Source of the DNA: Nitrospirota bacterium
Lineage (GTDB): Bacteria > Nitrospirota > JACRHL01
DNA length: 64,000 nucleotides
Direction of reading: 5' to 3'
Assembly (NCBI GenBank): GCA_016212085.1
Contig: JACRHL010000023.1
Location: forward strand, 1 to 64,000
A program made the position numbers and the translations under genes. The notes below the pieces were generated by a model, which made no database searches, was not told where the DNA came from, and was given only the letters and a program-made list of their open reading frames with translations. This document shows, piece by piece, positions 1 to 60,896 of this stretch (position 1 is the first letter of the stretch; the number at the start of each line of letters is the position of its first letter).

Positions 1-835
1 CGCCCGGCGGCGCGGTGGTGAACGCCAACGGTTGTTCGGCGACGCAACTGGATGATGATGGCGATGGCGTGAATAACGCCCTCGACCTCTGTCCGAACAC
101 CCCGGTGGGCGCGGTGGTGAATGCCGTCGGCTGCGCGCAGACCCAGCTAGACGACGATGCGGACGGTGTGAGCAACGCGGTCGACCTCTGCCCCAACACC
201 CCGGCGGGCGCGGTGGTGAATGCTGTCGGTTGCGCGGCGACCCAATTGGACGATGATTCGGATGGTGTGAACAACGCCCTCGACCTCTGCCCGGCGACGC
301 CCGCCGGTGCGGTGGTCAATGCCAATGGCTGCGCACAGACCCAACTGGACGACGATGCGGACGGGGTGAACAACGCGGTCGACCAGTGCCCCAACACCCC
401 GGCGGGCGCGGCGGTGAATGCCAATGGTTGCGCGGCGACGCAACTGGACGACGACAACGACGGGGTGAACAACGCTCTCGATCAGTGCCCGGCGACGCCC
501 GTCGGCGCGGTGGTGAACGCCAACGGTTGTTCGGCGACGCAACTGGATGATGATGGCGATGGCGTGAATAACGCCCTCGACCTCTGTCCGAACACCCCGG
601 CGGGCGCGGCGGTGAACGCCAATGGTTGCGCACAGACCCAACTCGACGACGATGCGGACGGGGTGAACAACGCCCTCGACCTCTGCCCCAACACCCCGGC
701 GGGCGCGGCGGTGAATGCCAATGGCTGCGCGGCGACGCAACTGGATGATGACGGCGATGGGGTGAACAACGCCGTCGACCAGTGCCCAGCGACGCCCGTT
801 GGTGAGGCGGTGGACGTGAACGGGTGCGCGGCATC
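1..835. repeat. Tandem 99-bp coding repeats, about 8 copies
   Basis: The coding units repeat with a 99-bp period. A stretch of about 80 bases starting near position 21 recurs essentially unchanged near position 516, which is five units later. Groups of units have therefore been copied as a block. One further isolated unit lies at about 1078-1177. Confidence 0.85.
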
Positions 836-2957
836 GCAGCTGGTGTGTGGCGACGACAAGCTGGGCACGGCGGACAGTTACGACGTGACGGCCGCGATCT
901 GTGTGTACACGCCGATCCCGGGCTACTGCGACGATGGCAAGGCGGGGACGACGGACAGCTACGACCTGGCGGCGGATTCCTGCGCCAACCTGCCGACGCC
1001 GGGCTACTGCGACGACGGTGACCCGAATACCCTGGATGCCTATGACCTGGCGGCGGATACGTGCAGCCACACGCCGCCGGACGACGATGGCGACGGCGTG
1101 AGCAACGCCCTCGACCAGTGCCCGGACACACCCAACGGCGCCGCGGTGAACGCCAACGGCTGTTCGGCCACGCAGTTGGATGGGGTGGCGCCGATCCTCA
1201 GCGGCGTGCCGGCGGACATGCATGTCGCCGCGGCGGGGCCGCAGGGTGCCGTGGTGTCCTTTACCCTTCCCACGGCCACGGATGACGTGTATGGCCAGGT
1301 GGCCGTCGATTGCCAGCCGGGAAGCGGAACGGTCTTCGGCATCGGCGATACCCCCGTCGCCTGTAGCGCCAGCGACGGCGCCGGAAACGTGGCCGGCGCC
1401 ACGTTCATGGTGTCCGTGTACGACGGCGCCCCGAGCCTGTCGCAGGTGCCGGCGCCCGTCGTCGTGGAGGCCTCGACCGTGCACGGCGCCGTGGTGACCT
1501 ATGCCAGCCCGGTGGCGGTGGACGCGGTGGACGGGGCCGTGCCGGTGGTCTGCGTACCGGCGTCCGACACCCTGTTCGCGCCGGGGGTCACGCCGGTTCA
1601 GTGCAGCGCGGTCGATGGGGTGGGCAATTCCGTGTCCGCCGGGTTCGACGTGACGGTGGTGCCGTGGGACCTGGCGCACCGTCCCGCCCGGCCGGTGATA
1701 TACGACATCGAGGCGGACTCCGACGCGCCGCTGACCCGCTTTGAGATGGACGTGAGCACCTTCTCCGACGCCGATGGCGGAACCGCCCCCACCATCGTGG
1801 CGTGGCGGATCGCGAATCCTGGCGGCGAGGTCTATGTGGGCGAGGAAGCGGCCGACGCGCTGGCGCTCCCCGAGCACGTGCTGCTGCCCGGCGCGGATTA
1901 TGACTTTGCCGTGCGCCACATGGATGACACCGGGTTGTGGTCGGAGTGGTCCGCGCCGTTCACCGTGAGCACGATCGCGGTGGATCCCGCCGACACCAAC
2001 GGCGACGGCATCGCCGACCGGAACGCGCCGGGCGCACCCACGGACACGGACGGCAATGGCATCGCCGACCAGGCGGAGGGGCTGCTTGCCCTGCTCGACG
2101 CGGAATCCGGCCTGCCGGTCGGCATCGCGTCCGACCAGGGCACGGTCACCCACGCGTCGGCGGCGCGGCTCGCGGACGTGGCCCCCGCCTATGCGGACAT
2201 GGACATGCCCCATGGCCTGCTGCGCTTCCGGGTGGTGGGGCTGGACCCGGGCGGCACGGCCACGGTTGTGTTCCACTTCCCGGACTTCCTGCGTGCCGAC
2301 GCCCGCTGGTTCTGGTTCGACGGCGCGGGCACGCGCCACGACCTGACCGGACAGGCGGCCCTCTCCGGGTTTACCGTGTCCGTCCCCATCACCGACGGCG
2401 CCGTGGGCGACGGGGACGGCGTGGCGAACGGGGTGATCGTGGATCCGAGCGGACCCGGCGTTCCGGTGAACGCGGCGCCGCCGGCCCCCGCCCTGGTGTA
2501 CCCGGCGGACGACGACGTTGACGTTCCCACCCGGTTCACCTTCGTCTGGAAAAAGTCGGCGGACCCGGACGGTGATGCGGTGACATATGCCATCACCTAT
2601 TGCCGGAACCCGGAGTTCGCCGGGTGCACCTATCGTACGGCGCCGGCCGGGCTGTTCAAGGGCCTGGGCATGGTGCTGGGGGCGATGGGGACGGCATGGG
2701 CCGTGCGCCACCGCCGCCACGGGGCGGCGTTGCTGCTGGCGGCGGCCATTGGTGCGGCGTCCGGCTGTGGCGGGGCCACGGAGGATGCCGGCGGTGGTCA
2801 TCTCTATGCCTTTCCGCCCTATCCGGCCCAGAACGAGGTGGGCCAGTCCGTGTTTGGGCTGAGGCCGGATACCACCTATTATTGGAAGGTGATGGCCACG
2901 GACGCCGGCGGCAACGGCAGCGAAAGCCCGGTGATGTCGTTCCGCACCGCGCCCTGA
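1..2957 (+). CDS. Partial surface protein with thrombospondin-type-3-like calcium repeats and HYR domains
   Basis: The frame is open at the left window edge, so the true start lies upstream. The visible ~984 residues begin with eight tandem 33-residue units (DDDxDGVNNAxDxCP core, a thrombospondin type 3/OmpA-linker calcium-binding pattern). Three CDDG-x-T-DSYD motifs and a ninth unit follow. Next come two HYR-like modules (about residues 395-560, with paired cysteines), a region containing two more DxNGDGxAD motifs, and a C-terminal fibronectin-III-like domain ending FRTAP. That last domain is interrupted near residues 885-930 by a hydrophobic, arginine-flanked stretch that resembles a membrane anchor and lipobox (AASGC). 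No signal peptide is visible because the N-terminus is missing. By architecture it is a secreted or surface-exposed structural or adhesive protein. It lies just upstream of a GH114 gene on the same strand. Function is inferred from repeats only. Confidence 0.75.
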   Translation, partial: PGGAVVNANGCSATQLDDDGDGVNNALDLCPNTPVGAVVNAVGCAQTQLDDDADGVSNAVDLCPNTPAGAVVNAVGCAATQLDDDSDGVNNALDLCPATPAGAVVNANGCAQTQLDDDADGVNNAVDQCPNTPAGAAVNANGCAATQLDDDNDGVNNALDQCPATPVGAVVNANGCSATQLDDDGDGVNNALDLCPNTPAGAAVNANGCAQTQLDDDADGVNNALDLCPNTPAGAAVNANGCAATQLDDDGDGVNNAVDQCPATPVGEAVDVNGCAASQLVCGDDKLGTADSYDVTAAICVYTPIPGYCDDGKAGTTDSYDLAADSCANLPTPGYCDDGDPNTLDAYDLAADTCSHTPPDDDGDGVSNALDQCPDTPNGAAVNANGCSATQLDGVAPILSGVPADMHVAAAGPQGAVVSFTLPTATDDVYGQVAVDCQPGSGTVFGIGDTPVACSASDGAGNVAGATFMVSVYDGAPSLSQVPAPVVVEASTVHGAVVTYASPVAVDAVDGAVPVVCVPASDTLFAPGVTPVQCSAVDGVGNSVSAGFDVTVVPWDLAHRPARPVIYDIEADSDAPLTRFEMDVSTFSDADGGTAPTIVAWRIANPGGEVYVGEEAADALALPEHVLLPGADYDFAVRHMDDTGLWSEWSAPFTVSTIAVDPADTNGDGIADRNAPGAPTDTDGNGIADQAEGLLALLDAESGLPVGIASDQGTVTHASAARLADVAPAYADMDMPHGLLRFRVVGLDPGGTATVVFHFPDFLRADARWFWFDGAGTRHDLTGQAALSGFTVSVPITDGAVGDGDGVANGVIVDPSGPGVPVNAAPPAPALVYPADDDVDVPTRFTFVWKKSADPDGDAVTYAITYCRNPEFAGCTYRTAPAGLFKGLGMVLGAMGTAWAVRHRRHGAALLLAAAIGAASGCGGATEDAGGGHLYAFPPYPAQNEVGQSVFGLRPDTTYYWKVMATDAGGNGSESPVMSFRTAP

Positions 2958-3043: not shown

Positions 3044-3940
3044 GTGCGTTTACTGGCCGTGTTCATGTTCCTGCTGGCGCTCGCCGTGGGGTGCCAGCCG
3101 TCCGACACCAACGTGGAGCAGCCGCCCACCCCGGCCCCCGCTTCCGGCGCGGGAAATGGTTCCGGCAACGGTTCCGGCGGCGGTTCCGAGCCCGGCCCCA
3201 CGCCGGCGCCGGCCGCGTGGTACGTGCCGCCTGCCACGGCCACCTGGCAGTGGCAACTGAGCGGCACCGTCAACACCACCTATCCGGTCAACGTGTACGA
3301 CATCGACCTGTTCGATTCCCCCACCGGCCTGATCGCCAACGTGCAGGCCGGGGGCAGGCGGGTGGTCTGCTACTTCTCCGCCGGCTCCTACGAGAACTGG
3401 CGCCCGGACGCCGGGGCCTTCCCCCCCGCCGACCTGGGCAATGCCCTGGGCGGCTGGCCGGGGGAGCGCTGGCTGGACATCCGCTCCGCCGACGTGCGCC
3501 GGCTCATGGCCGCCCGGCTGAACCTGGCGTTGCAGAAAGGGTGCGACGCCGTGGAGCCAGACAACGTGGATGGCTATACCCAGGACACGGGTTTCCCCCT
3601 GAGCGGAGCCGACCAGCTTGCCTACAACCGGTTCCTGGCCGCGGAGGCCCACGCCCGGGGCCTGGGCATTGCCCTGAAGAACGATCTGGACCAGGTGGCC
3701 GCGCTGGTGGACGCCTTCGACTTCGCCGTCAACGAACAGTGCCACCAGTACAACGAGTGCGACCTGCTCAGGCCCTTCACCGACGCGGGCAAGGCCGTGT
3801 TCAACGCGGAATACAACAGCGTGTATGTGAACGACGCGGCGCGGCGGGCGCAGTTGTGCGCCGGTTCGATCGCCGCCGGCCTGCGCACCCTGATCCTGCC
3901 CGTCAACCTGAACGACGCCTTCCGCCACAGCTGCGACTGA
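3044..3940 (+). CDS. GH114 family endo-alpha-1,4-polygalactosaminidase-like lipoprotein
   Basis: This 298-residue lipoprotein has a signal peptide ending in a lipobox (LAVGC, Cys17) and a Gly/Ser/Pro-rich linker (about 22-58). A TIM-barrel catalytic domain of the GH114 type follows. The diagnostic segment CDAVEPDNVDGY (about 167-178) supplies acidic residues Glu171, Asp173 and Asp176, and LKNDLDQ follows. GH114 enzymes cleave alpha-1,4-linked galactosamine-rich polymers. The characterised fungal member Ega3 acts on deacetylated galactosaminogalactan. Start GTG is preceded by AAGGAGG at a good distance. It converges on the deacetylase gene with a 13-bp gap, at the tail of the Pel-like operon. 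The inferred role is trimming or releasing the galactosamine-containing polymer at the cell surface. Confidence 0.85.
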   Translation: MRLLAVFMFLLALAVGCQPSDTNVEQPPTPAPASGAGNGSGNGSGGGSEPGPTPAPAAWYVPPATATWQWQLSGTVNTTYPVNVYDIDLFDSPTGLIANVQAGGRRVVCYFSAGSYENWRPDAGAFPPADLGNALGGWPGERWLDIRSADVRRLMAARLNLALQKGCDAVEPDNVDGYTQDTGFPLSGADQLAYNRFLAAEAHARGLGIALKNDLDQVAALVDAFDFAVNEQCHQYNECDLLRPFTDAGKAVFNAEYNSVYVNDAARRAQLCAGSIAAGLRTLILPVNLNDAFRHSCD

Positions 3941-3953
3941 ACGGCGTTCCGGC

Positions 3954-5855
3954 CTATTGGGCCAGCATGCGGTCCACGGCGAAGGTGCGCGGCGCGGTGC
4001 CGACACCCACATCCATGATGCGCTGGCCCCCATAGGGGACGCCGCCGGCGACGCCGGTGAGCATCACCCGCGCGGGCTGGCTGGCGGCCACGGTCACCTG
4101 GTTGGTGGCGGTGTCCAGGCTCGCGGTGACGGTGGCGGCCAGGGCGTCCACCCGGTTCCGGGTGCGCCGGGCGATCTCGTGATAGGGCAGGTTGAGCACC
4201 GGCAGCTTCATGAACTGCTCGTAGCGCGCCAGCACCGCCTCCAGCCAGTCGAACTGGAGGGTGGCGCCGTTGCCGTCGTAGGCGTGCAGGTTGCTCTGGT
4301 GGAAGTAGTGGGGCCACATGCGGTAGGTGAGCATGTGGCCCAGGGTGGCCTCCGCCTCCACGTCGAGAATCTGGGCGTAGGTGTAATTGGTGCCGAACAG
4401 CACGTTGTATTCGTCCGTGTTCAGCGACGGCGTGGAGGTGTTGTAGAACACGCCCGTGGGCCAGCGTGGCAGCAGCATCAGGTTGAAGCCGGGGACATAC
4501 TCCTCCGAGGCCTGGTTCGCGCGCGAGGTGTCCGACGCCAGGAAGCGGATGCCCAGGTCCTGGGAGGCCTGCAGGAATGCGTCGTTCTTGCCGGCCGGAT
4601 AGGATGCGAGCAGGACGCCGGCGTCGTTCACGTCCTCCAGGCCGGAGTGGCCGCCGCTCACCAGGACGGGGCGGTTTGGGCCCATCTCCGGCAGTTGCAG
4701 GCGGTCCCACACCAGGATGTTGGCGTCCATGTCGCCGTGGGCCATGGCATAGGTGGTGCCGTTGCTCAGGTCCATGTCCATGTGGGTCAGGGTGTGGTTG
4801 ATGAAGCGGAAGTGGCGCTTGTGCTTCATCATGGCCTGAACCAGGGGGTCCAGGTGGTCCGCCGCGCCCCCGCCGTTGAAGGCGAATTCGATGGCGAAGT
4901 CGGACAGGGTGGGGTGCGCCGCCACGATGGCGTTCTGCCTGGCGACGGCGTTGGTCACGTCGGCCGGGGTCATGCGCACGATGGTGTTGGTGTCGGTGGT
5001 GTTGTTCGCCGCGTTCCACGACGGCGAGGTCACGAACAGGTCGTCGCTGTGCGCCGCCAGGAACACCTGGCGGGCGCCCACGAACACCCCCTTGGTGGCG
5101 AAGTTCAGGAACTCGTACGCCAGCAACCGGGAATAGGGCAGGTACGACGCGTTGGCGATGCTGCACAGCAGCACCTCGCGGCCGTTGGCGTAGGTGAGGG
5201 TCGAGACCAGCACCTGGCCGGGGGTGGCGGCGCGCACCAGCAGCGGCTGCGCCACGGGGCGCCCGGCGCCGCCGGCGGGCTGGCCGCTCACGGCCCAGTC
5301 GGTGATGGTGAGCGGGGTGGCGGTGTTGACGTACTCGAACAGGTCGGTGCCACCCGCCGGGGCCTGCCAGGTCGCGCTAACGTTGCCGCCGTATTGCAGG
5401 GCGCCCATGCCGTAATCCAGGTCCAGGCCCGCGTTGGTGACCGGATCGCCGGACATGACCGCCTCGCGCACCCCGAAGTCGCGCTCGTAGGCGTGCAGGG
5501 TCTGCCACTCCGCAAGGGAAAACGCAGAACCGCCGGTGGACACGAGCGACGCCTCGGTGAGGATGATGCCGTTGTACCGGCCGTGGGTGCCGCTTGCCAG
5601 CGTGGCGGCGGTGAGGGGCGTGGTGGCGGCGTCCAGCACGTCGTACGGCACGCCCACCGCGTCCAGCAGCTCGGTCATCACCGTCCGGGGCTCGGCGTTG
5701 CCGACGGCGATCACCAGCACCTTCAGGTCCAGGGTCGCCGCCCGCGCGGGGGGGGTGGCGGCGAGGGTGGTGAACAGGAGCGCGGCGGACGCCAGCAGCG
5801 CCGGGAACGGCCGGTACGGATGGGTGGGGTTGGCAAAGATGTTCATGGTGATCAC
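3954..5855 (-). CDS. Agd3/CE18-like polysaccharide N-deacetylase (stand-alone counterpart of the PelA deacetylase domain)
   Basis: A 633-residue exported protein: the N-terminal signal peptide ends near ARA-ATL (about residue 40). A beta-rich N-terminal region (about 42-255) resembles the sugar-binding front half of Agd3. A NodB-like deacetylase core follows, with AHSDD at 268-272 (motif 1, metal and catalytic Asp) and HTLTH at 354-358 (motif 2, metal His pair). Family knowledge: fungal Agd3 partially deacetylates galactosaminogalactan, and PelA does the same job on Pel. The start GTG overlaps the pelG stop (GTGA), so it is translationally coupled as the last gene of the operon. An alternative ATG lies 9 bp further in. 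The CE18 assignment is by recalled motif and architecture, not by a search. Confidence 0.7.
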   Translation of the reverse strand: MITMNIFANPTHPYRPFPALLASAALLFTTLAATPPARAATLDLKVLVIAVGNAEPRTVMTELLDAVGVPYDVLDAATTPLTAATLASGTHGRYNGIILTEASLVSTGGSAFSLAEWQTLHAYERDFGVREAVMSGDPVTNAGLDLDYGMGALQYGGNVSATWQAPAGGTDLFEYVNTATPLTITDWAVSGQPAGGAGRPVAQPLLVRAATPGQVLVSTLTYANGREVLLCSIANASYLPYSRLLAYEFLNFATKGVFVGARQVFLAAHSDDLFVTSPSWNAANNTTDTNTIVRMTPADVTNAVARQNAIVAAHPTLSDFAIEFAFNGGGAADHLDPLVQAMMKHKRHFRFINHTLTHMDMDLSNGTTYAMAHGDMDANILVWDRLQLPEMGPNRPVLVSGGHSGLEDVNDAGVLLASYPAGKNDAFLQASQDLGIRFLASDTSRANQASEEYVPGFNLMLLPRWPTGVFYNTSTPSLNTDEYNVLFGTNYTYAQILDVEAEATLGHMLTYRMWPHYFHQSNLHAYDGNGATLQFDWLEAVLARYEQFMKLPVLNLPYHEIARRTRNRVDALAATVTASLDTATNQVTVAASQPARVMLTGVAGGVPYGGQRIMDVGVGTAPRTFAVDRMLAQ

Positions 5856-7231
5856 CGGATGGAGGGATTGTTCTTGATGAATACCAGATATGGCAGGTCG
5901 CGCAGGGCGTTCATCAGCATGGTGTAGCCGACCACGAAGGTGACGAGGGACGCGGCGAAGAAGCCCAGCCCGTAGTAGGCGAATCCCAGCCGAATGGAAA
6001 GGTATGTGAACCCGCCGTTCAGCACCAGGAACAGCAGTTGCAACATCAGGTTGGCGCGGCGGTGGTCCAGGTACGACAGGATGATCGACACCAGCAGCAC
6101 GAGGGTGTAGAACAGGGCGCCCAGCACCCCCAGGCGGAAAATGCCCAGGTGCAGGAAGTCGCCATTCGCCAGGGCGATGATCCCCGGCGCGAAGAACACC
6201 ACGGTGGCGCTTACCGCCACCTGGAGCAGGATGATGCCCCGGAAGGTGGACAGCACGTGCAGGATCACCGCCTGCTGGTTCCCCACGATGCGCGCATAGG
6301 TGGCGTGGGCGTGGATGTCGCGGAAAAAGTCCCGCATGCGCTCGAACAGGCCGGTCTCGCCATACACCGTGAACATGGTCATGGCCGGGATCGCCGTCAG
6401 GCAGGCCAGGAACATGGCCACGTCATAGTAGCGGTTGAAGGTCATGGCGCCGGCCACCACCTGCCGCTCCGGCGCCAGCCACATCACCCACTTGTCCACC
6501 CAGATGGCCGCGGCGAACAGGAAGCCGCCCAGGGTCAGCTCCCAGTAACGGCTGAAATAGGACCAGAAGGCCGCCGGCCAGCGCACCCGGAACGCATACT
6601 CGGTGAACACCCGCGAGATGATGGTGAACTTGATCAGCAGCAGCCCCAGGCTGAACCCGGCCAGCATGCCGGTGGTGCCGTGGCTCTCCGCCAGCAGCGT
6701 GGCTGCCAGGAACGACACCGCCATGCCCGCGCCGAACACGCCGGTGATGGTGCGATAGTCCTTGAGGGCGCTCAGGAACAGGGTGACCACCCAGATTCCC
6801 GCCACCAGGAAGAAGTTCACGATGGCCATCAGCCGCGCCGGCAGCGCCAGCTCCACGCCATAGCAGTAGAACGGCACGGCCACCAGCAGCCCCAGGGCAT
6901 AGACCAGCCCCAGGGCGGCGAGCATCAGGCCCGGCGCCCGCCGGTGGGACTTTTCGTAGATGCAGTCCGCCAGGTAGCGGGTGGTGGTGAGCACCACCCC
7001 CCCGGACAGCACCAGCGAGAGGGAGAAGTTGTAGGTGACCACCACCTGGAAGGTGACCAGCTCCGCCGTGGGCACCCGCGCGCGGTTCAAGAGGTAGATG
7101 CCGGCCAGGGCCAGCACCGTGAACAGCCACGGCCCGGCGGCGATGAGGCCGGCGTAGCCGTAGCCCTTGGCGACCTCCAGCAGGTTGCCGCTCCGGACCA
7201 TCCTTCTGAGCGCGAATCCGATGCCGGCCAT
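5852..7231 (-). CDS. pelG: PelG, polytopic inner-membrane transporter of the Pel-like polysaccharide
   Basis: The protein has 459 residues. It begins MAGIGFALRRM, the typical PelG start, and has about twelve hydrophobic segments throughout. PelG belongs to the MATE/MOP-type exporter superfamily and works with PelD, PelE and PelF as the inner-membrane synthase complex. Length matches the usual PelG (about 455). The start ATG overlaps the pelF stop (TAATG). Upstream in-frame codons extend the frame into pelF but read as a shadow of it. The stop overlaps the next gene's GTG start. Confidence 0.92.
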   Translation of the reverse strand: MAGIGFALRRMVRSGNLLEVAKGYGYAGLIAAGPWLFTVLALAGIYLLNRARVPTAELVTFQVVVTYNFSLSLVLSGGVVLTTTRYLADCIYEKSHRRAPGLMLAALGLVYALGLLVAVPFYCYGVELALPARLMAIVNFFLVAGIWVVTLFLSALKDYRTITGVFGAGMAVSFLAATLLAESHGTTGMLAGFSLGLLLIKFTIISRVFTEYAFRVRWPAAFWSYFSRYWELTLGGFLFAAAIWVDKWVMWLAPERQVVAGAMTFNRYYDVAMFLACLTAIPAMTMFTVYGETGLFERMRDFFRDIHAHATYARIVGNQQAVILHVLSTFRGIILLQVAVSATVVFFAPGIIALANGDFLHLGIFRLGVLGALFYTLVLLVSIILSYLDHRRANLMLQLLFLVLNGGFTYLSIRLGFAYYGLGFFAASLVTFVVGYTMLMNALRDLPYLVFIKNNPSIR

Positions 7232-8712
7232 TACGCCTCCATGACCATCTCGCGGTACAGGTCGCCGTAGGTCCGGTCGATGGTCTGCTTGTTGTAATAA
7301 CGCCGCACCCGCTCCTGGATCGCCCGCCCGCAGCGCCGGCGGTAGTCGTCGTCGCCCAGCAGGCGGGCCATCGCCTTGGCGGTGGCGGCGGGGGACGCGG
7401 GTTCGGTGATCTCGCCGCCGCACCCCAGGTGCGGCGATTCGTCGGGCCGCCCCAGGACCATCTCGCGGCAGGCCCCCACGTCGGAGGCGACGCACGGCAC
7501 GCCGGCGGCGCCGGCCTCCAGCAGGCACAGGGGTTGCGCCTCGCTGACGCTGGTCAGCACGATGCAGTCGATGCGCCCCAGGTAGGCCTTCGGGTCCACC
7601 CGCCCGGTGAACACGATGGTGTCCCCGGCGTCCAGCCGCCGCACCAGTTCCAGGCACTCGGCGTGGTATTCCGGCTCCTCGTCCATGGGGCCCAGCACCA
7701 GCGCCTTCAGGCCCGGCACGTCGCGCCGCAGCCTGGCGCAGGCGCGGATGTAGGTCTTCACGTCCTTGATGGCCACCACCCGGCCGATGAGCGCCACCGT
7801 CGGCGGCCGCTCGCCGGTTTCCGCCGGGATCGAGGCGTACATCTCGTAGTCCACGCCGTTGGGGACGATGGCCAGCTTTTCCGGGGGCGCGCCGTCGCGC
7901 AGTTGCAGCGCCTGGTTGCCGGAGTAGAGCGTCAGGATGTGGTCGCTGGCCTCGTAGCAGACGCGGGCGTAGCTGGCGAAGCTGTCCTTCCAGACATCCG
8001 CCAGGCCGTGTTCGTGGTCGCCCACCACCAGGTGCGGGTCCGGGTACCCGTAGACCCAGTCGGCCATGGTGATCTCGATGCGGCGTTCGTTGGTGTAGAT
8101 GCCGTGCTCGGTGAGCAGCACCCGGCTACCCGCCTCCAGCTTCGCCCTGGCGGCGACCAGGCCCGCGTAACCGGTGGACACGGTGTGGTAGATGGTTGCC
8201 TTGGGCAGCGGGCCCAGCAGGCATGCGTACAGGCCGCCCAGCAGGCACCGGCACGCCCAGAAGTAATCGAGGAACGGGCCGTCCGGCAGCGCCGCCTCGT
8301 ACATGCCGACGGTCAGGTTCCAGGCGGACTTCGAATCCAGCAGGGCGTGCTGGCCGCGTTGCGACCTGGGCAGCCGCGCCAGCACCGCGATGACGGCGGC
8401 CAGGTGGTCCAGGCCGCCATGGGGCTGCTGCAACGCCAGCAGGGGCTCCCTGAGCCCGTTCAAGGCGCCGTTGAGGCGGACGCCCGGATTGCCCGGCACG
8501 CCCACCCGGTCCAGGAAGACATGGTGCAGCCCCACCACGTTGGGGGGCAGGGTGTAGCCCATCCTGCGCGGCTCCCGGTCGGGCAGCACCACCAGCACGT
8601 GAAACGTCAGGTCCGGGTGGGCGGCGATCAGGTTCTGCACCCAACTCGACACCCCGCCCACCGAGTAGGGATAGGCCCCTTCGGACACCAGGCAGACATC
8701 CGCCGTGGTCAT
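7231..8712 (-). CDS. pelF: PelF, cytosolic GT4 glycosyltransferase
   Basis: A 493-residue GT-B enzyme of family GT4. The N-terminus CLVSEGAYPYSVGGVSSW is diagnostic for PelF. The C-terminal half carries the E-x7-E motif (SEAQPLCLLE) that binds the nucleotide-sugar phosphates, preceded by a KAYLGRID-type segment. Characterised PelF uses a UDP-sugar to build the Pel chain with PelD/E/G. Gram-negative Pel is rich in GalNAc/GalN. The ATG overlaps the pelE stop by four bases (ATGA), so the genes are coupled. Length is close to the usual ~500. Confidence 0.93.
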   Translation of the reverse strand: MTTADVCLVSEGAYPYSVGGVSSWVQNLIAAHPDLTFHVLVVLPDREPRRMGYTLPPNVVGLHHVFLDRVGVPGNPGVRLNGALNGLREPLLALQQPHGGLDHLAAVIAVLARLPRSQRGQHALLDSKSAWNLTVGMYEAALPDGPFLDYFWACRCLLGGLYACLLGPLPKATIYHTVSTGYAGLVAARAKLEAGSRVLLTEHGIYTNERRIEITMADWVYGYPDPHLVVGDHEHGLADVWKDSFASYARVCYEASDHILTLYSGNQALQLRDGAPPEKLAIVPNGVDYEMYASIPAETGERPPTVALIGRVVAIKDVKTYIRACARLRRDVPGLKALVLGPMDEEPEYHAECLELVRRLDAGDTIVFTGRVDPKAYLGRIDCIVLTSVSEAQPLCLLEAGAAGVPCVASDVGACREMVLGRPDESPHLGCGGEITEPASPAATAKAMARLLGDDDYRRRCGRAIQERVRRYYNKQTIDRTYGDLYREMVMEA

Positions 8713-9767
8713 GGCGCCACCCCCTCGACGCAGGGCCGCCGCCCCTCGTCCCACAATTCGATGGCGTGCAGGATCTCGCGCGGAACCCGGCTGCGGAATT
8801 CGGCCAGGTATTTGGCCATGCGCAGCAGGTGGTGCAGCTCGTCGAAGCGCCCCAGGCGGTACAGGCACTCGCCGTACCAGGGCACGGACGAGAGCTTGTC
8901 GCCGCTGCCGTAGGCGATGGGGCGCAGCATGTCGGCGGCCTCGGCAAGCTGCCCGCAACGGCACAGCATGCGCCCCACCGCCGTGGATACCTCCGGGTCG
9001 CCGGGCCGCAGCGCAAGGCACTGGCGGTAGGCGGCCAGCGCCTGGTGCCGGAGGTCGTGCACCCGCTCCTCATCCCACAGCCCCACGTAGGCATAGTTAT
9101 CCAGGTGGCGGGCCAGTTCCAGCCATGCCGGGTAGTCCGACGGGTGGCCCTCGGCGACGCTGGCCAGGTGGTTGGCGCGCTCCGCGTGGTCGTTCTCGAT
9201 GCGCGCGACGGCGATGGCCGCCTGCGAGCGCAACTGGGGATCGCGAAGGGCCAGCCGCAGCGACGGCGCGAACATGGGCTTGAAGTCCTTGGCGATCAGC
9301 ATCAGCAGGGTGTGTTTCTCGTCCGTGTCGCCGTAGCGGATCAGGTCGGTGAACGACAGCACCGCCGCGCCGGAGGCCGGCTTTTCGCGGCCCGAGGCGA
9401 TGTTCTCGAACAGGGTGTCCCACTGCCCCGGAGCGCCTTCGCCGAACAGGGAGCGGCGCCACGCCTCGAAGCCCCCGGGGCGGCGCCCGAACACCCGGTG
9501 CAGCGCACCCGTCCACAGGGCGCCCAGGGCGCCCACCGGGCCCAGGGCCGCCGTCGCCAGGATGTACAGCTCGCCGATGCGCAGGGGGTGATGGCGCCGC
9601 CGGTAGCTGTGGCGCCACAGCAGCAGCAGGGCGACCACGCCCAGGTGTCCGGCAATCACCCACCCCGGCGGGCGGCCGCCCAGGAGCGCCCAGGCGAGCC
9701 CGCTCTCGGCGGCCAGCGCCCCGCCCAGGACCGTTGCGGCCTCCGCCCGCCATAACCACCTAGTCAC
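8709..9767 (-). CDS. pelE: PelE-like membrane/TPR scaffold
   Basis: A 352-residue protein with two N-terminal membrane segments (about 12-30 and 36-55) and a helical hairpin near 70-95. The cytoplasmic part contains HEAT-like and TPR-like helices (about 160-340, e.g. ALRPGDPEVSTAVGRML). This matches PelE topology and length (about 330). In characterised systems PelE bridges PelD and PelF in the synthase complex. The start GTG overlaps the pelD stop by eight bases, and the stop overlaps pelF (ATGA). Confidence 0.85.
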   Translation of the reverse strand: MTRWLWRAEAATVLGGALAAESGLAWALLGGRPPGWVIAGHLGVVALLLLWRHSYRRRHHPLRIGELYILATAALGPVGALGALWTGALHRVFGRRPGGFEAWRRSLFGEGAPGQWDTLFENIASGREKPASGAAVLSFTDLIRYGDTDEKHTLLMLIAKDFKPMFAPSLRLALRDPQLRSQAAIAVARIENDHAERANHLASVAEGHPSDYPAWLELARHLDNYAYVGLWDEERVHDLRHQALAAYRQCLALRPGDPEVSTAVGRMLCRCGQLAEAADMLRPIAYGSGDKLSSVPWYGECLYRLGRFDELHHLLRMAKYLAEFRSRVPREILHAIELWDEGRRPCVEGVAP

Positions 9768-10860
9768 CGTCGTGCCCTCCGCGATGGGTGGCGCGCCAGG
9801 GCGCCGGGGGGGTCAGGACGCCGCCGTGCATGGCGGCGCCGATCGCCTGCCCGTCCCGTGGGGTGTCCGCGCCGTCCGCAAGGGTGGCGGGGGCCGCCTC
9901 CCTTGCCAGGAACGGGCCCGGCGCGCCCTCGCGGCCACGGCGGCGCACGTCGGCCAGGGCCACGCCGATCCATTCGCAATTGATGCGGAAGCTCTCGACG
10001 GACTGGGAACCCAGTTCCATGAAGGCGAGCTGCTCCACCTTCAGCATGCCGAATGCCTCGCCGGAGGCGGGGTCGATGAGCGGGCCGGCCAGCACGCCCT
10101 GGTCGGCGAGGAACGGCCGGTCCTTGGGGTCGCCAACGCACAGGTAGTGGTGCTGCGCGATCACGCGGCGGAACAGCTCCGAATCGGGGTTGAACTCCCG
10201 GTCCCACCGTTCGTCCTCCTGCCACCCCTCCATCAGGACCGGCCGCAGGCGGCCCCGGGTCATCACGAAGATGGAGAATTTTTCCGGGTGCACGAGTTCT
10301 CGGGTCACCTCTGCGGCGCCCGCCAGGAGGCCCTTCTCGTCCACATTGGCCACGGCGCGGGAGATGGTCCTGGCGGCCTCGCAAAGGGTATGGGTGGTAC
10401 GCACCTGACCCGCGATCTGGCCTTCCAGCATCCGCGCGGTGCCCTTCAGGTCGTTGTAGGCGGTGGTGATCACGTCCAGTTGCCGCCGCGCCTGCGCCGC
10501 CCGTGCCTGGGTCGTGGCGCGATCGCGCAACTGCGCGGATCGCATGCCGCCCAGGATGCCCGCCGCCAGCACCCACAGCAGCGGCAGCTGGGTGACGGCG
10601 AACATGTACTGGTAACGGTCCTGGGTCAGGGCCTGGGGCGGCAGGTTGCCGGCAAGCTGGGCCACGCCGGCCGCGGCCGCCACGATCAGGCCGGGCGCCA
10701 GGCCGTGGCGGGCGCTGACGGCCAGGACGATCACCCAGAAGGGGTGTGGCGAGAAGGCCGCGAAACGCGTGCCGTCAAACCAGGTGTGGTCGGCCCACAG
10801 CGCGCCGCCGAGGAACAGCGCCGCCACGATATAGGGTGTTTGCGTGCGTTGATTGGACAT
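9760..10860 (-). CDS. pelD: PelD-like inner-membrane protein with GAF domain but no GGDEF domain
   Basis: The protein has 366 residues, against about 455 in Pseudomonas PelD. About four membrane segments (residues 8-110) lead into a coiled-coil-like stretch (115-170), then a GAF domain (about 175-310, including FGMLKVEQLAFMELG). The last ~50 residues are low-complexity and Gly/Pro/Ala-rich. The degenerate GGDEF domain that carries the RxxD c-di-GMP site in Pseudomonas PelD is absent. Post-translational control by c-di-GMP may therefore be lost or may reach the complex another way. ATG start; the preceding barrel gene ends 50 bp upstream. Confidence 0.85.
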   Translation of the reverse strand: MSNQRTQTPYIVAALFLGGALWADHTWFDGTRFAAFSPHPFWVIVLAVSARHGLAPGLIVAAAAGVAQLAGNLPPQALTQDRYQYMFAVTQLPLLWVLAAGILGGMRSAQLRDRATTQARAAQARRQLDVITTAYNDLKGTARMLEGQIAGQVRTTHTLCEAARTISRAVANVDEKGLLAGAAEVTRELVHPEKFSIFVMTRGRLRPVLMEGWQEDERWDREFNPDSELFRRVIAQHHYLCVGDPKDRPFLADQGVLAGPLIDPASGEAFGMLKVEQLAFMELGSQSVESFRINCEWIGVALADVRRRGREGAPGPFLAREAAPATLADGADTPRDGQAIGAAMHGGVLTPPAPWRATHRGGHDGD

Positions 10861-10910
10861 TTTCCGTCACCCCCGACATGGGTTATCGGGCCCGTTTTCC
10901 GGCCCCCCCG

Positions 10911-12497
10911 TTACGAATCCCCCCACGCATCGGGTGCCGCCGGACGCCAGACCAGCGACACCCCGTATTCCCGCACCGTGTCCCCGCCGCCCCGGTTCGC
11001 GTTGATGGAGCGGCCCGCCTGCAAGGCCAGCTCCAGGTTCGCGTTCAGGCGGTAGACGAGATGCAGGTTGGCGAACAGCCCGTTGTCGTTCATGCGGTCG
11101 TACGCATACCCCGCGCCGGCGCCATAGTGCAGCCGCTGTCCCGATGCGCCATAGGACACGCCCGCGGCGTGGACCTCCCGGTCGGTGACCGGCAGCGGGC
11201 GGAAACGGCCCCCGCCCGGGGCCGCGAAGGTGATGACGTGGCCCAGGTATTCCGCGTCGAGGGTGTAGCTCAGCAGGAATCCCGGCGTCCGCCCGTAGTG
11301 GAGGGCGCCGCTCAGTCCGCCGCCGTTGGCCACCCGGCGCTCGGCGATCCAGTAGCGGTTGGCGGATACGCCGATGGACCCGTGCAGCAGTCCGCCCAGG
11401 GGCCGGCGGTGGGCGATGGCAAGGCGGTCTTGCAGGCCGTCGTCGGCCACGCCCTCCACGTAGTCGAAATAGGGGCGGTGATAGATGGCGTCCAGCTCCG
11501 TCTCCTCCGGCCAGCCACCGTTCCGGTGGGACATGCGGAAACCCGTTCCCTCCGGGTTGACCAGCATCCCGAGCTGGGTTTCCGCGCCGTCGGGCCAGTC
11601 GTGCCCGAACCACAGCTCGGCGCTGCCCAGGTGCCGGTCGACGGCGGTGACCGCGCCGCTGGCGCGCCGCACGCCGTCGATGCTCAGGTGCCGGTCCTCG
11701 GCGCGCACCCCGGCCACGCCGCGTTCGCCCCACAGCATCCGGCCGCTGGCGGTGGTGATGGTCTGCCGGTCGGCACCGTCCACGTCGCGCACCAGGGCCT
11801 GGAGCCGGGAGTGGGGGCCGTGTTCCCGCGCCAGCCGCGCTCGGGCCGGCCCGGCGCTTTCCGGCGCCAGCGTCTGCGCGTGGGCATAGCCGTTCAAGGC
11901 GCCGCGCCAGTCGCCCAGGCTTTCCGTCACCCGCGCCAGGTCCGTGGCCAGGGCGCCGTCGTCCGGGGCGCCCTGGGACAGTTGCCGCAGCAGGGCCTGG
12001 GCTTCCTTGAGGTCGCCGCCCTGCGCCAGGGCCAGGGCGCGCAGGTGGTCGATGCGGCCTTGGCCGCTGTTGTCCGCCGGGCGTTCCGCCGGTTCCTCCA
12101 GGGGCATGGCCGCAAGCGTGATGGCGACCCCGCCGGCGGTGCCGGTGACCGTGTAACGCACCGGGCGGCGGGACTCGATCAACAGGGTGTCGTAACCGTA
12201 ACGGACCCCCGCGATCCACGCCGGCAGACGCTCCGGGAGCGTCTGGAGCGGCGCATCGCCCAGGGGCTGGTCGAAACGCAGCCAGAGTGTCTGCTGATCC
12301 AGCTGCACCTCCACGGCGTGCGCCGGTTGCGGCCAGCCCAGGGTGATGCGCGGGCCGTCGTCGGCCGCGGCCACGTCGACCGTTACCGGGCCCGGCTGGG
12401 CGGCCGCCGTCGCGGCGGTCAGCCACAGCGCCAGCAAGGGCTGGGCCAGCCGGGCGAGCCGGTCGCGGGCGGCGGGTCGCATGGCAGGGGTGGCCAC
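10911..12497 (-). CDS. Outer-membrane beta-barrel protein, separate PelB porin half
   Basis: A 528-residue protein with its own signal peptide (LLALWLTAATAAAQ). An N-terminal beta domain follows (about 38-135), with alternating pattern reminiscent of AMIN or secretin N-domains. Then come a few TPR-like helices (about 150-240) and a C-terminal barrel of alternating amphipathic strands (about 250-520) with aromatic girdle residues, ending YGVSLVW plus a short tail. In Pseudomonas the export porin is the C-terminal third of PelB. Here it is a free-standing gene starting two bases after the TPR gene. Start GTG is chosen for this spacing; an ATG lies 15 bases in. Assignment rests on order and architecture. 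Confidence 0.7.
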   Translation of the reverse strand: MATPAMRPAARDRLARLAQPLLALWLTAATAAAQPGPVTVDVAAADDGPRITLGWPQPAHAVEVQLDQQTLWLRFDQPLGDAPLQTLPERLPAWIAGVRYGYDTLLIESRRPVRYTVTGTAGGVAITLAAMPLEEPAERPADNSGQGRIDHLRALALAQGGDLKEAQALLRQLSQGAPDDGALATDLARVTESLGDWRGALNGYAHAQTLAPESAGPARARLAREHGPHSRLQALVRDVDGADRQTITTASGRMLWGERGVAGVRAEDRHLSIDGVRRASGAVTAVDRHLGSAELWFGHDWPDGAETQLGMLVNPEGTGFRMSHRNGGWPEETELDAIYHRPYFDYVEGVADDGLQDRLAIAHRRPLGGLLHGSIGVSANRYWIAERRVANGGGLSGALHYGRTPGFLLSYTLDAEYLGHVITFAAPGGGRFRPLPVTDREVHAAGVSYGASGQRLHYGAGAGYAYDRMNDNGLFANLHLVYRLNANLELALQAGRSINANRGGGDTVREYGVSLVWRPAAPDAWGDS

Positions 12498-12499
12498 GG

Positions 12500-14587
12500 T
12501 TACCGTGCCGCCGTCACCTGCCGGAGCCGTTCCAGCAGGCCGTTGCGGTACAGCATCGCCGCATACTCGCCCAGCATCGCGGCGTCGTCCGGGAAATCCT
12601 GGTGCAGCTGTTCGTAGGCGGCCACGGCCTCGGCGACGCGGCCCAGCCGGTCCAGGCTGGCGGCCACCGCCAGGCGCGCCGCGTAACCGGGCACCGCCTG
12701 CGCTTCCGCCAACTCCAGCGTGCGCCGGTAGTAGGCGGCGGCGCGGCGGTCGTCACCCAGGTTGGTCAACGCCGTGGCCATGGCGTGGGCCGCCTCCAGG
12801 TCCGCCGGGCCCCCTTGCAGGTAACGCTCCAGATACGCGGCCGCGGCCTTGTGATCCTGGCGGGAGAGGGCGGCAAGGCCCATCCAGCGCAGGGCCTCCC
12901 CGTCATCCGGAACGGCGGACAGCAGCCGCGCATAGGCCACGCCGGCGAGGGCCGTGTCGCCGGTGCCCTGCGCGAGGCCCGCGTAGCGCCGCAGCCGCGC
13001 CGGATCGCTTGCGTGGGGCAGCAGGTCGCGCAGCAGGTCCGCCAGCCGTGCGTGATTGTTGGTGGCGACCAGGGCTTGCAGGTAGATGTCCGTGGCCGCC
13101 GCGCCGCCGGGCGGGGGGCCCGCCTCGAACATGCGCGCCACCCGCTCCGCGCCGCCGCCCAGGTCCATGAGGTGTTGCAGCCAGACGATGCGCTCCGGGC
13201 CGGCGGCGTGCTCGGCGCGCCGCTGCACCCACGCCAGGGCGGCGTCGCCGGGACGCGGACCCCACAGGAAGAACAGCTCGCGCACGTCCGGGTGGTCCGG
13301 CCCGTGCGCCTCGGCGAGGGACAGGAAGATCTCCAGCGCCGCGTCCCGCTGGCCCTGGGCCAGGAGATCGAAGGCGGTCTTGCGGCGGTCGTCCTCGGAT
13401 GCCTGGCCGCCAGCAAGGCGCGCGCGCAGGTAGTGGCCCAGCTCCGCGTGCTCGCCCAGCCGTTGCAGGGTGGTCACGTACAGCGACGCCATCCGCGGAT
13501 CGTCCGGCACCAGCTCGCGCAGGTAGATCAGCGCGTGGTCATCGCGTCCGGCGGCGAGCAGCGCCATGGCGAGGCGGCGTTGCGTCTCCAGGGCCGGCGC
13601 CTGGTCGAACAGCCGCTGGGCGCTGGCCACGGCGAGCTGGGTCTGGTTGCTGTCGCTGGCGATGTGATAGAGATCCTCGAGCAGGGGGCGGCCGAGCGGG
13701 CCCTGGGTGGTCAGCCAGGTCATCACCTCGGCCTCGCGCCGGGCGGTGGCGGCCAGCCGCGCCCAGGCACCCTCCACCTCGGGCAACGGGCGCACGGCGC
13801 GGAAATAGGCGAACGGCCGCAGGCCATCGGCGGCGCGTTGGGCGGCGGCATAGGCGTTGGCCAGGTCGTTGAACAGAACCGGCGCGGCGGCCGGATCGGC
13901 GGCAAAGCCGGTGAGCGCTTGGGCCGCCTGGTCCAGGCGGCCCAGGGCCAGCAGCACCTGGAAGTGGGTGGTGCGGGAGTGGACGTCGAGGGGCGCCAGC
14001 TCGGAGCCGGTGAGCGTTCCCAGGGAGCGGGCCGCGGCGGCGGCGTCACCCTGGCGCAGTTGCAGGTGGGCGAGCTGAATGCGCTCGGCGACGGTGATGT
14101 CCGCCGCGCCGGCGAGCCGTTGCAGTGCCTGGAACTGTTTTTTTGAATCGCCGTGATGTCCGTACAGCCCCGCCAGCTCGCGCAGGCGCGCCGGGGTGGG
14201 GCTGGCGCCGTTCAGGATTTCCAGCTGGCGCTGGTAGTCCGCCAGCCGGCCGGCCTGCCAGTTGGCCGTCGCCAGCAACTCGTGACCCTTCATGTCGTCC
14301 GGGTGCGCGGCCAGGTAGGTTTCCATGAGCGCCACGGCGCGGTCGGCCTCGCCCTTGTCCAGGTATATGTGTACCAGCGGCACCAGCACCGCCACGGAGG
14401 CGTCGCCATCGGCGATGCGGCGCTGGTAGGTCTGCTCGGCGTCCGCGAACTGCCCGGCCTTGTAGCGCATGAACGCCAGCTCGCCCTCCGACGGGATGGA
14501 GAGCCAGACGGCCAGCGACGCGCCAATGGCGGAAACGGCCACCAGCCCGCCGCCGCGGTGCAGCTCCCGGTCCACTTCCGGGGTCAT
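12500..14587 (-). CDS. Membrane-anchored TPR scaffold, separate PelB TPR half
   Basis: A 695-residue protein with one N-terminal membrane segment (about 15-32, VAVSAIGASLAVWL) followed by TPR-type helical pairs to the C-terminus. Examples are YKAGQFADAEQTYQ near 42, DKGEADRAVALMETYL, and a canonical block near 590-680. It has no barrel. Pseudomonas PelB is a single ~1190-residue protein with this TPR region followed by the porin. The TPR region captures PelA and guides polymer across the periplasm. Here the two functions are on adjacent genes. The start overlaps the hydrolase stop (ATGA). Confidence 0.75.
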   Translation of the reverse strand: MTPEVDRELHRGGGLVAVSAIGASLAVWLSIPSEGELAFMRYKAGQFADAEQTYQRRIADGDASVAVLVPLVHIYLDKGEADRAVALMETYLAAHPDDMKGHELLATANWQAGRLADYQRQLEILNGASPTPARLRELAGLYGHHGDSKKQFQALQRLAGAADITVAERIQLAHLQLRQGDAAAAARSLGTLTGSELAPLDVHSRTTHFQVLLALGRLDQAAQALTGFAADPAAAPVLFNDLANAYAAAQRAADGLRPFAYFRAVRPLPEVEGAWARLAATARREAEVMTWLTTQGPLGRPLLEDLYHIASDSNQTQLAVASAQRLFDQAPALETQRRLAMALLAAGRDDHALIYLRELVPDDPRMASLYVTTLQRLGEHAELGHYLRARLAGGQASEDDRRKTAFDLLAQGQRDAALEIFLSLAEAHGPDHPDVRELFFLWGPRPGDAALAWVQRRAEHAAGPERIVWLQHLMDLGGGAERVARMFEAGPPPGGAAATDIYLQALVATNNHARLADLLRDLLPHASDPARLRRYAGLAQGTGDTALAGVAYARLLSAVPDDGEALRWMGLAALSRQDHKAAAAYLERYLQGGPADLEAAHAMATALTNLGDDRRAAAYYRRTLELAEAQAVPGYAARLAVAASLDRLGRVAEAVAAYEQLHQDFPDDAAMLGEYAAMLYRNGLLERLRQVTAAR

Positions 14588-15480
14588 GGCGCGGGCTCGT
14601 ACACCACCCGGTCCAGGCCGATGGTGGCAACGTAGGGCGAGAACCCGTGGCGGCGCTGCTCGGCGTAGGCCGCCCTGATCCCCGCCGGGTCGGCGGGGTC
14701 CCAATAGTCGAGGGTCATCACCCGCAGGTTGGGAAAGGCGCGCCGCGCGGCGTCCAGCTCCCGCACCTGGCGCTGGAAATCCACCGCGTCCGTCCGGCGG
14801 TAGGCGCCGCTCCCAAAGTCGTGGCGGGTGAACACGGACTCGCCGAGGAGCATGTCGATATGGCCACCCACCTCGGGCAGGATGGCGTATGCCCGGTTGA
14901 GCATGATCCGGGTTTTCGGAAATTGCCGGCGGATGGCGAGCACCAGTTCGGCGGCGGCGGCGCGCATCCCCGCCGCCGTGTCCGGGTGGGCCCGCTCCCG
15001 TTCGATGGGGTAGTCGAGGGTGTCGATGAACAGGCCATCGAAGCCGCGCGCCAGGATGCCGGGCACCAGCTCGTCCACGACCCGGCGCTGCCAGCGCGGG
15101 TCGCGCACGTCGATGCCGAAACTGCCCGGCCAGTCGGGGTTCTCGCCGAGGAGCACGCCGTCGGCCCGGAGGGCCTGGAAATAGCCGCGCTGGCTGCCCA
15201 CCTCGCCCAGGCTCAGATAGGCGAGCACGGTCTTGCCGCGCTCCCGCAACGGGGCCACGGGGGCGGAGTAGGCGCTGTCCAGCACCACGATGTCGAACGG
15301 GGCGAAAGCCGCGGCCGACGCGCCGGCGCCGTAATAGACCGCCCATGGCACCCCGGCCTGTTGCGCAAGGGCCGCGCCCCCCGCCGACAGGCCGAAGGCG
15401 ACGCACAGCAACACCCCCGCCCCCGTCAGCACCGGTCCCGCCCCGGTCCCCCATTGTGCCGTTACGCGTTCGTCACCCAC
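14584..15480 (-). CDS. PelA-type glycoside hydrolase (GH166-like) without the deacetylase domain
   Basis: A 298-residue exported protein whose signal peptide ends near LAQQAG (about residue 41). The rest is one TIM-barrel-type domain: VLAYLSLGEVG (85-95), GLFIDTLD with Asp153/Asp156 (149-156), and LLGESVF with Glu214, which aligns by position with the essential Glu218 I recall for Pseudomonas PelA. The protein stops where the PelA deacetylase domain would begin. That activity appears instead as the last gene of the operon. It is the first gene after the intergenic promoter region. Start GTG is taken because it gives a full signal peptide. Confidence 0.8.
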   Translation of the reverse strand: MGDERVTAQWGTGAGPVLTGAGVLLCVAFGLSAGGAALAQQAGVPWAVYYGAGASAAAFAPFDIVVLDSAYSAPVAPLRERGKTVLAYLSLGEVGSQRGYFQALRADGVLLGENPDWPGSFGIDVRDPRWQRRVVDELVPGILARGFDGLFIDTLDYPIERERAHPDTAAGMRAAAAELVLAIRRQFPKTRIMLNRAYAILPEVGGHIDMLLGESVFTRHDFGSGAYRRTDAVDFQRQVRELDAARRAFPNLRVMTLDYWDPADPAGIRAAYAEQRRHGFSPYVATIGLDRVVYEPAP

Positions 15481-16014: not shown

Positions 16015-16024
16015 GGGGGGGTGG

Positions 16025-16098
16025 GGTGAGCGACGGGGATCGAACCCGCGACCACAGGAACCACAATCCTGTGCTCTACCGACTGAGCTACGCTCACC
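16025..16098 (-). tRNA. tRNA-His (GTG)
   Basis: Full cloverleaf on the minus strand. The acceptor GTGAGCG/CGCTCAC carries the extra G(-1) paired with C73 that marks tRNA-His. The anticodon loop is TTGTGGT and the T-arm contains GGTTCGATCC. A CCA tail is encoded (16022-16024). Confidence 0.96.
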
Positions 16099-16147
16099 AC
16101 GAACTGTCTCCGGGCTTTTCCCCGCCCGGCGAGAAGGGGGCGCATGG

Positions 16148-16221
16148 CGCGCCTGAGAGGATTCGAACCTCTGACCCGCGGCTTAGAAGGCCGCTGCTCT
16201 GTCCTACTGAGCTACAGGCGC
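16148..16221 (-). tRNA. tRNA-Arg (TCT)
   Basis: Acceptor GCGCCTG/CAGGCGC, anticodon loop CTTCTAA with anticodon TCT, T-arm GGTTCGAATCC, discriminator G and an encoded CCA (16145-16147). Second gene of the tRNA operon. Confidence 0.95.
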
Positions 16222-16280
16222 TTCACCTACGCGACGGGTTGTCCGCCAGCGACCATGTCTGCGCCCTGGGTGCCGCAGGG

Positions 16281-16357
<77 letters not shown>

Positions 16358-49648: not shown

Positions 49649-50138
49649 GCAGGGCCCAAACGATGCCGGAACCGACCACTCCCGCCACCTTCCACGCCAC
49701 CACCATCCTGGCGGTGCGCCACAATGGCCAGACCGCCATCGCCGGCGACGGCCAGGTGACCCTGGGCAACACGGTGATGAAGGGTCGGGCGGTGAAGATC
49801 CGCAAGCTGCACGAGGGGCAGGTGCTGGCGGGCTTCGCCGGCGCCGCGGCCGACGCCTTCACCCTGTTCGAGCGCTTCGAGGGCAAGCTGGCGGAATACC
49901 GGGGCAGCCTCACCCGCGCGGCGGTGGAACTGGCCAAGGACTGGCGTAGCGACCGCATCCTGCGCCGCCTGGAGGCGCTGCTGGCGGTGGCGGACCGGGA
50001 CCACGCCCTGCTCATCTCCGGCACCGGCGACGTGATCGAGCCGGACGACGGCCTGGTGGCCATCGGCTCCGGCGGCCCCTACGCCGGCGGCATCTGCATC
50101 TACACCAACACCCACATCAGCGTGGAGGTGCTGGGGGG
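49359..50138 (+). repeat. Diverged duplicate of the xerC 3' end plus hslV
   Basis: Matches 46619-47473 at an offset of 2740-2743 bp with a few percent substitutions, a 3-bp insertion and a 78-bp deletion. The left edge cuts the sugar transferase gene. The right edge runs under the 3' end of the pglF-like gene. Confidence 0.93.
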
Positions 50139-50142
50139 GTAG
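49663..50142 (+). pseudogene. hslV: Second hslV copy with an internal in-frame deletion
   Basis: A 159-residue frame nearly identical to HslV (185) but lacking 26 residues between GSGGPYA and GGICIY. That removes a helix and adjoining strand of the Ntn-hydrolase fold. The catalytic Thr13 and flanking motif are kept. The deletion keeps frame, so a protein could be made, but assembly into the HslV ring is unlikely. The 3' end overlaps the convergent pglF-like gene by 26 bp. Confidence 0.82.
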
Positions 50143-52144: not shown

Positions 52145-52339
52145 GGGGCACCTCGCGAAACCGCCATTTACGCTGGCCTGGGAGTCGGAAGGCGGTTAGT
52201 GCCGGCAACCGACCCCATTTGCCGATTTGAAGGGACACCCCCCTCGATTGTGCCCCGATGCAGGCGGATCGGGCGACCCGGGGCACACCTCTCATGTCGC
52301 ATGGACTGGACTCGTCTCCTGGCGCCAAGCCAGCCCGTC

Positions 52340-52687
52340 TCATGTTGAAGACCGTCGCCCTGTGCCGTCGTGGCTTCGGTCGGCGTACACGTCGCCTTTG
52401 GTGGACCCCACCCGACCTTCCGGTCCCACGAGGGCTGCTCGCCGGGGGGCAGCCCTCGTGGAGCGGCCAGCCCTTACCGTCTGCTTCCTCTCGCGGCGCA
52501 GCATCCGCCGCGCCCGCTTTGGTGATACGCTACCGAAGTGCCCAAACCATAGTGCTGTCCAGGATTTCGGGTCGCCCCCTCCAGCCCCCACTAAACGTCG
52601 GAACGACAACCGGTCCAGGGTTTTGTATTTGAACTGCCCGTCCGACACGTTGATCAGTTGTTTGATCACCAACAGCTGTGCCATCAA
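52340..52687 (-). pseudogene. IS5-family transposase remnant
   Basis: The first ~50 residues of this frame (VIKQLINVSDGQ, then LDRLSFRRLVG and a later TALWFGHF) follow the N-terminal pattern of IS5-group transposases (LSD-x-Q, DRLSFRRFxGL, TxWxFR). After that the reading becomes arginine-rich noise, and no DDE catalytic region can be found. It lies in a 950-bp stretch (52145-53103) with no intact gene. Confidence 0.5.
52426..52461. repeat. Perfect 13-bp hairpin
   Basis: CCACGAGGGCTGC and GCAGCCCTCGTGG with a 10-base loop, inside the IS remnant region. No T run, so it is not an obvious terminator. Confidence 0.7.
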
Positions 52688-60895: not shown

Positions 60896-60896
60896 C

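Follow-up and report, generated by a model that had tools for sequence, protein, structure and literature searches.

How can a Gram-negative Pel operon mature its polymer in a genome that lacks the deacetylase domain of PelA? This question is raised by an operon in the first 64,000 nucleotides (64 kb; hereafter, the window) of contig JACRHL010000023.1 from a Nitrospirota bacterium (assembly GCA_016212085.1). In Pseudomonas aeruginosa, PelA is a GH166 hydrolase and a CE21 deacetylase joined in one protein. Pel biofilms of this species need deacetylation by PelA, and PelC is described as indispensable to export and as a defining mark of Pel systems in Gram-negatives (PMC12022489, PMC12141448). 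In the window, genes for a GH166 hydrolase, a tetratricopeptide repeat (TPR) protein, a porin, PelD, PelE, PelF, PelG and a CE18 deacetylase form, in that order, one contiguous operon on the minus strand (15480 to 3954). The pelDEFG core is present as in the Gram-negative Pel operon (detected with Pfam, NF038011 and PelD and PelE profiles), and we consider it likely that the operon is a complete trans-envelope Pel type, producing a cationic polymer of galactosamine (GalN) and N-acetylgalactosamine (GalNAc) that is matured by CE18 instead of CE21. The features are as follows.

14584 to 15480, minus strand: GH166-type endo-α-1,4-galactosaminidase with signal peptide, a stand-alone counterpart of the PelA hydrolase domain (PF03537, 84 bits; PDB 5tcb, 2.6e-23)
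12500 to 14587, minus strand: TPR scaffold protein with an N-terminal hydrophobic segment, equivalent to the N-terminal half of PelB (TPR Pfam matches)
10911 to 12497, minus strand: PelB-like outer-membrane porin with its own signal peptide (AlphaFold model; best PDB match 9h80)
9760 to 10860, minus strand: PelD, transmembrane and GAF regions, without C-terminal GGDEF domain (GAF_3 at 176-303; PelD profile)
8709 to 9767, minus strand: PelE, transmembrane and TPR regions (TPR matches; PelE profile)
7231 to 8712, minus strand: PelF, GT4 polymerase (NF038011, 397 bits)
5852 to 7231, minus strand: PelG, inner-membrane exporter (PF16933, 391 bits)
3954 to 5855, minus strand: CE18 deacetylase with CBM87 and signal peptide (PF25115/PF25116; AlphaFold model; catalytic residues)
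3044 to 3940, plus strand: Ega3-type GH114 lipoprotein, convergent with the operon (PF03537, 299 bits; Ega3, PDB 6oj1, 1.2e-67)
16022 to 16357, minus strand: tRNA-His/Arg/Pro cluster, a possible insertion landmark outside the pathway (ARAGORN)

Successive genes of the operon overlap or nearly overlap at ATGA, GTGA or TAATG borders, the sole exception being a 50-nt gap ahead of pelD. Because the stop codon of pelG overlaps the start codon of the CE18 gene (GTGA), and most junctions are four-base overlaps or near-overlaps, the CE18 gene belongs to the operon and is not a bystander. Its product matched PF25115 (Agd3_CE) at 71.3 bits and PF25116 (CBM87) at 47.3 bits (cut-off 27.6), and its only convincing sequence match in the PDB was Agd3 (6nwz, 3e-15). 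The protein retains D271, D272, H354, H358, R464 and H519, i.e., the Agd3 motifs CM1 (DD), CM2 (HxxxH), CM3 (Arg) and CM4 (His). When an AlphaFold model (mean pLDDT 91.5, from a 45-sequence alignment) was compared with the PDB, the best match was again Agd3 (6nwz; E 7.9e-39, TM 0.77/0.74), while CE4 enzymes appeared only at E of about 1e-3 and PelA fell outside the 50 best. A CE4 or PelA identity was rejected, since Pfam, PDB sequence and fold matches all favored CE18/Agd3; the profiles, the fold and the catalytic residues together uphold the CE18 assignment proposed in a preliminary description of this DNA, which had named structure prediction against Agd3 and PelA as the check. The second-best fold match of the model was the human heparan sulfate N-deacetylase NDST1 (E 2.6e-22, TM 0.56), which suggests that, at the level of the predicted fold, the two enzymes may have a common deacetylase architecture.

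The best PDB match of the GH166 protein was the PelA hydrolase, and the catalytic Asp (LFIDTLD) and Glu (GESVF) are retained. With the 5tcb and Agd3 matches, the earlier proposal that PelA is replaced by a hydrolase encoded by the first gene and a CE18 enzyme encoded by the last proved correct. The same was true of the GH114 assignment, on the strength of the matches listed above; this protein has the EPDNVDG and NEQC motifs and a lipobox (LAVGC). PelD and PelE were assigned from GAF and TPR matches, plus profiles that also recovered both proteins in related operons.

A profile for the CE21 domain had no match in the window genome at E ≤ 1. This genome is 99.25% complete in 23 contigs, with the operon contiguous within one of them. 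Among 29 other CE18-bearing genomes, 27 of which carried PelG, CE21 was matched in 20; the nine without it were Thiocystis violacea, two Burkholderia, Rhodoferax lacus and five metagenome-assembled genomes (MAGs) titled Proteobacteria, Deltaproteobacteria, Myxococcales or bacterium. As a reference sample unbiased by CE18 we used 399 evenly drawn Pseudomonadota genomes, 30 of which contained a true PelG. CE21 was present in 29 of these 30, and in the sole genome lacking it (G793) a CE18 gene adjoins pelG. The gene order in G793 (GH166-PelB-PelD-PelE-PelF-PelG-CE18, with a convergent gene of GH114 fold) is that of the window, except that PelB is fused. The operon of Rhodoferax lacus likewise reads GH166-PelB-PelD-PelE-PelF-PelG-CE18. 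CE21 loss was associated with CE18: none of 28 Pseudomonadota PelG genomes without CE18 lacked CE21, compared with 11 of 31 CE18 carriers (p about 4e-4 by Fisher test, which ignores kinship). In the window's own phylum, CE21 was found in 12 of 13 PelG genomes without CE18; the remaining one is a MAG of 78% completeness in which pelG is cut by the contig end.

The compared loci (L numbers) could be arranged in three states. In one, there is a full PelA and a CE18 gene lies close by (Nitrosovibrio L020, Vibrio mytili L036/L139, Archangium L051). In another, GH166 and CE21 are separate genes, with CE18 either in the operon (L131, L132, L030) or elsewhere (L128, L129); the separate CE21 of these intermediates matched PelA at 1.6e-55. 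In the last, GH166 and CE18 are present without CE21 (the window, L134, L135, L140, L141, L148). The direction of change between these PelA/CE18 states is one that we infer. A PelG tree placed the window inside a clade of split-type operons (support 100/99). In the CE18 tree the CE21-less genomes were spread over several clades (at least three), and the state changed at least five times: the window grouped with Gammaproteobacteria and Nitrosomonadaceae, L057/L065 with Myxococcota MAGs, and Burkholderia with Rhodoferax and G793. Because the CE21-less genomes lie in separate clades, similar end states would have been reached via different CE18 lineages. Tandem pairs of CE18 genes were also seen (L027, 9968-15107; L004, 11704-16269; L043, L047, L052 and L056). 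The CE18 sequences of L038 and L042, from contigs whose titles name MAGs of Akkermansia muciniphila and Klebsiella pneumoniae, grouped with Verrucomicrobiales and with each other, and these titles are probably wrong.

The function of PelB is also spread over two genes in the window, i.e., the TPR protein and the separate porin, and the fused form is absent. An AlphaFold model of the porin (pLDDT 76) has a small N-terminal β domain, TPRs and a 16-strand barrel, and its best PDB match was PelB of the PelBC complex (9h80, TMt 0.63), followed by BcsC and PgaA. These matches, with the TPR Pfam matches, agree with the preliminary description, in which PelB had been read as separate TPR and barrel genes. 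The split, with the two genes as neighbors, recurs in loci L131, L132, L134 and L135, and each of the six split-type porins carries a signal peptide of its own. A single PelB broken by a frameshift was rejected because of this signal peptide and the recurrence of the split in related operons.

A PelC profile, validated against solved PelC structures, found no pelC in the 64-kb window (the remainder of the genome was not searched), so that the absence noted in the preliminary description stands for the window. Nor was there a match in the stretches retrieved for L131, L132, L134, L135, L140 and L148; the profile did find PelC in L128, L129, L125, L127, L139, L141 and others. Two of these loci (L128, 7637-8940; L129, 7873-9329), which are split operons of Chromatiales type, have two tandem genes for PelC-type lipoproteins between pelD and the porin gene. 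The split-type porins have an N-terminal β-rich domain without a Pfam match (window 12108-12392, residues about 36-130), which might assume part of the role of PelC.

The window PelD had no match to PelD_GGDEF (PF16963) and stops 63 residues past the GAF domain, its gene ending inside the start of pelE; the same Pfam library detected PelD_GGDEF in the PelD proteins of L141 and L140. As the GGDEF domain is missing, control by cyclic di-GMP (c-di-GMP) via this PelD has probably been lost, judging from its sequence. Streptococcal PelD proteins are also without a GGDEF domain (PMC7112168). The PelD of L132 is similarly short (329 amino acids, GAF only).

Where did the operon come from? Of 395 genomes sampled from the window's phylum, no other one has CE18, PelG was absent from the three other genera of the organism's family, and the other Pel operons of the phylum (L125-L127) are built differently. 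For these reasons, acquisition of the operon from another lineage is likely. The tRNA cluster lies 540 bases upstream. A foreign base composition was rejected: the G+C content of the operon (67-73%) matches that of the rest of the first 50 kb of the window, so base composition lends no support to a recent transfer. Elsewhere in the window (50000-63000) G+C drops from about 70% to 61-65%, which may mark the border of a foreign stretch. On the other side of the GH114 gene, 15-2957 (plus strand) encodes a large protein, perhaps of the matrix, that contains numerous calcium-binding repeats of thrombospondin type 3 and a HYR domain; its gene ends 86 bases ahead of the equally oriented GH114 gene, and the two are possibly co-transcribed.

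Several points count against maturation by CE18 in place of CE21. Since the two families coexist in 20 of the 29 CE18 genomes, CE18 is often accessory. By itself, the even Pseudomonadota sample, with its one CE21-less genome, gave a Fisher p of 0.07, and the carriers in the pooled comparison were selected for having CE18 and do not count as phylogenetically independent. Within the CE18 set there was no significant tie between CE18 in the operon and absence of CE21, CE18 being linked to pel genes in 6 of 10 CE21-less and 7 of 20 CE21-bearing genomes (counted by eye). In addition, a system with no pelC, fused PelB or PelD GGDEF domain could be one of reduced function, or could make another polymer. 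The coexistence with CE21, together with the many CE18 genes unlinked to pel genes (L008-L012, L032), would fit a role for CE18 as an accessory or extracellular remodeler in an ordinary Pel system, deacetylation being performed by an unrecognized enzyme or not at all. We regard that as unlikely for the window, because its CE18 gene is translationally coupled to pelG, its genome is without CE21, and no Pseudomonadota PelG genome without CE18 was seen to miss CE21.

That CE21, pelC or a fused PelB only appear to be absent, through assembly gaps or frameshifts, might be suspected from the 23 contigs and from the change of frame at which PelB is split. It is very improbable given the completeness of the genome, the contiguity of the operon, the recurrence of splits and absences in independent genomes (L131, L132, L134, L135, L140, L148), and the signal peptides of the six porins. 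The preliminary description had viewed the locus as a hybrid of bacterial Pel and tailoring enzymes of fungal type, and the fungal enzymes Agd3 and Ega3 do belong to CE18 and GH114. An origin of these enzymes in fungi is nevertheless scarcely credible. The closest relatives of the window CE18 are bacterial (up to 55% identity to gammaproteobacterial CE18s, versus 20% to fungal Agd3 by structural alignment), and clusters of CE18, PelF and GH114 are widespread in bacteria, our genome-neighborhood survey finding them in Actinomycetota and Deinococcota. Bacterial and fungal Agd3-type sequences separate in the tree of Bamford et al. (2020), a paper that had already reported bacterial CE18 and GH114 genes next to those for Pel (PMC7229062).

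The mechanism that we propose for maturation by CE18 is a predicted function, well supported by operon anatomy and comparative evidence. PelF would polymerize UDP-GalNAc, and PelDEFG would move the α-1,4-GalNAc chain across the inner membrane. The TPR protein, anchored in that membrane, may guide the chain in the periplasm, where contacts with the other proteins are presumed. The CE18/CBM87 enzyme would deacetylate the chain in place of the absent CE21 domain of PelA, GH166 would trim it, and the separate PelB-like porin would export the cationic polymer. The GH114 lipoprotein may cleave the GalN-rich polymer, for turnover or release. A wider proposition, on which we are evenly divided, is that the Gram-negative Pel deacetylase is an either/or: CE21 would be dispensable only with CE18 and would have been displaced several times independently, some lineages also losing PelC and the c-di-GMP domain of PelD, so that Pel export and control could run without parts called essential. 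Operons that lack pelC and in which nature has repeatedly replaced the deacetylase offer ready cases in which to ask which contacts (PelA-PelB, PelB-PelC, c-di-GMP-PelD) are needed. It is also suggested that surveys baited with PelC or full-length PelA overlook this group of operons.

Compared with P. aeruginosa pelABCDEFG, the window shares PelD, PelE, PelF, PelG, a GH166 hydrolase, and a TPR scaffold with a PelB-type porin; it differs in having CE18 for the CE21 of PelA, a stand-alone hydrolase, a two-gene PelB, no pelC (in the 64-kb window) and a PelD without GGDEF. Its parts list is largely known already, given the operons of Bamford et al. (2020) and the families founded by PelA (CE21) and by Bacillus cereus PelADA (CE26). 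The former (Burkholderia, Moritella, Stigmatella, Gram-positives; PMC7229062) share with the window CE18 with CBM87, a glycosyltransferase and a multi-pass membrane protein; their agd3 homologues share operons with GH114 genes, and in Gram-negatives Pel genes are present as well. As to whether the arrangement was already a catalogued Pel variant, which the preliminary description had left as a possible objection, CE18 and GH114 beside Pel genes are thus on record, whereas neither CE18 in place of a lost CE21 nor a split-PelB, PelC-less build with CE18 is reported in the text read of that paper. PelB fission has also been described, in aquatic thermophiles (Figure 5iii of PMC7112194); these share the two-gene PelB with the window, and CE18 is not described there. 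In the literature text covered, we found neither displacement of CE21 by CE18, nor its recurrence, nor its company with a split PelB and no PelC. The B. cereus operon pelDEADAFG (CE26/CBM114 PelADA; PMC7112168, PMC13254593) resembles the window in its PelDEFG core, its hydrolase in a gene of its own, and its separate deacetylase with an α/β/α binding domain; it differs in being Gram-positive, with no outer-membrane parts and another CE family. Finally, the galactosaminogalactan cluster of Aspergillus fumigatus (Agd3, CE18; Ega3, GH114) is a fungal synthase system without PelDEFG, its sequences and the bacterial ones forming separate clades in the published tree, but it shares with the window the deacetylase and galactosaminidase families and the Agd3 fold. 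Both Agd3 and PelA are reported to deacetylate α-1,4-GalNAc oligomers (PMC7229062, PMC12022489), in favor of maturation by CE18. The replacement of the deacetylase also provides a link between fungal galactosaminogalactan and bacterial Pel enzymology.

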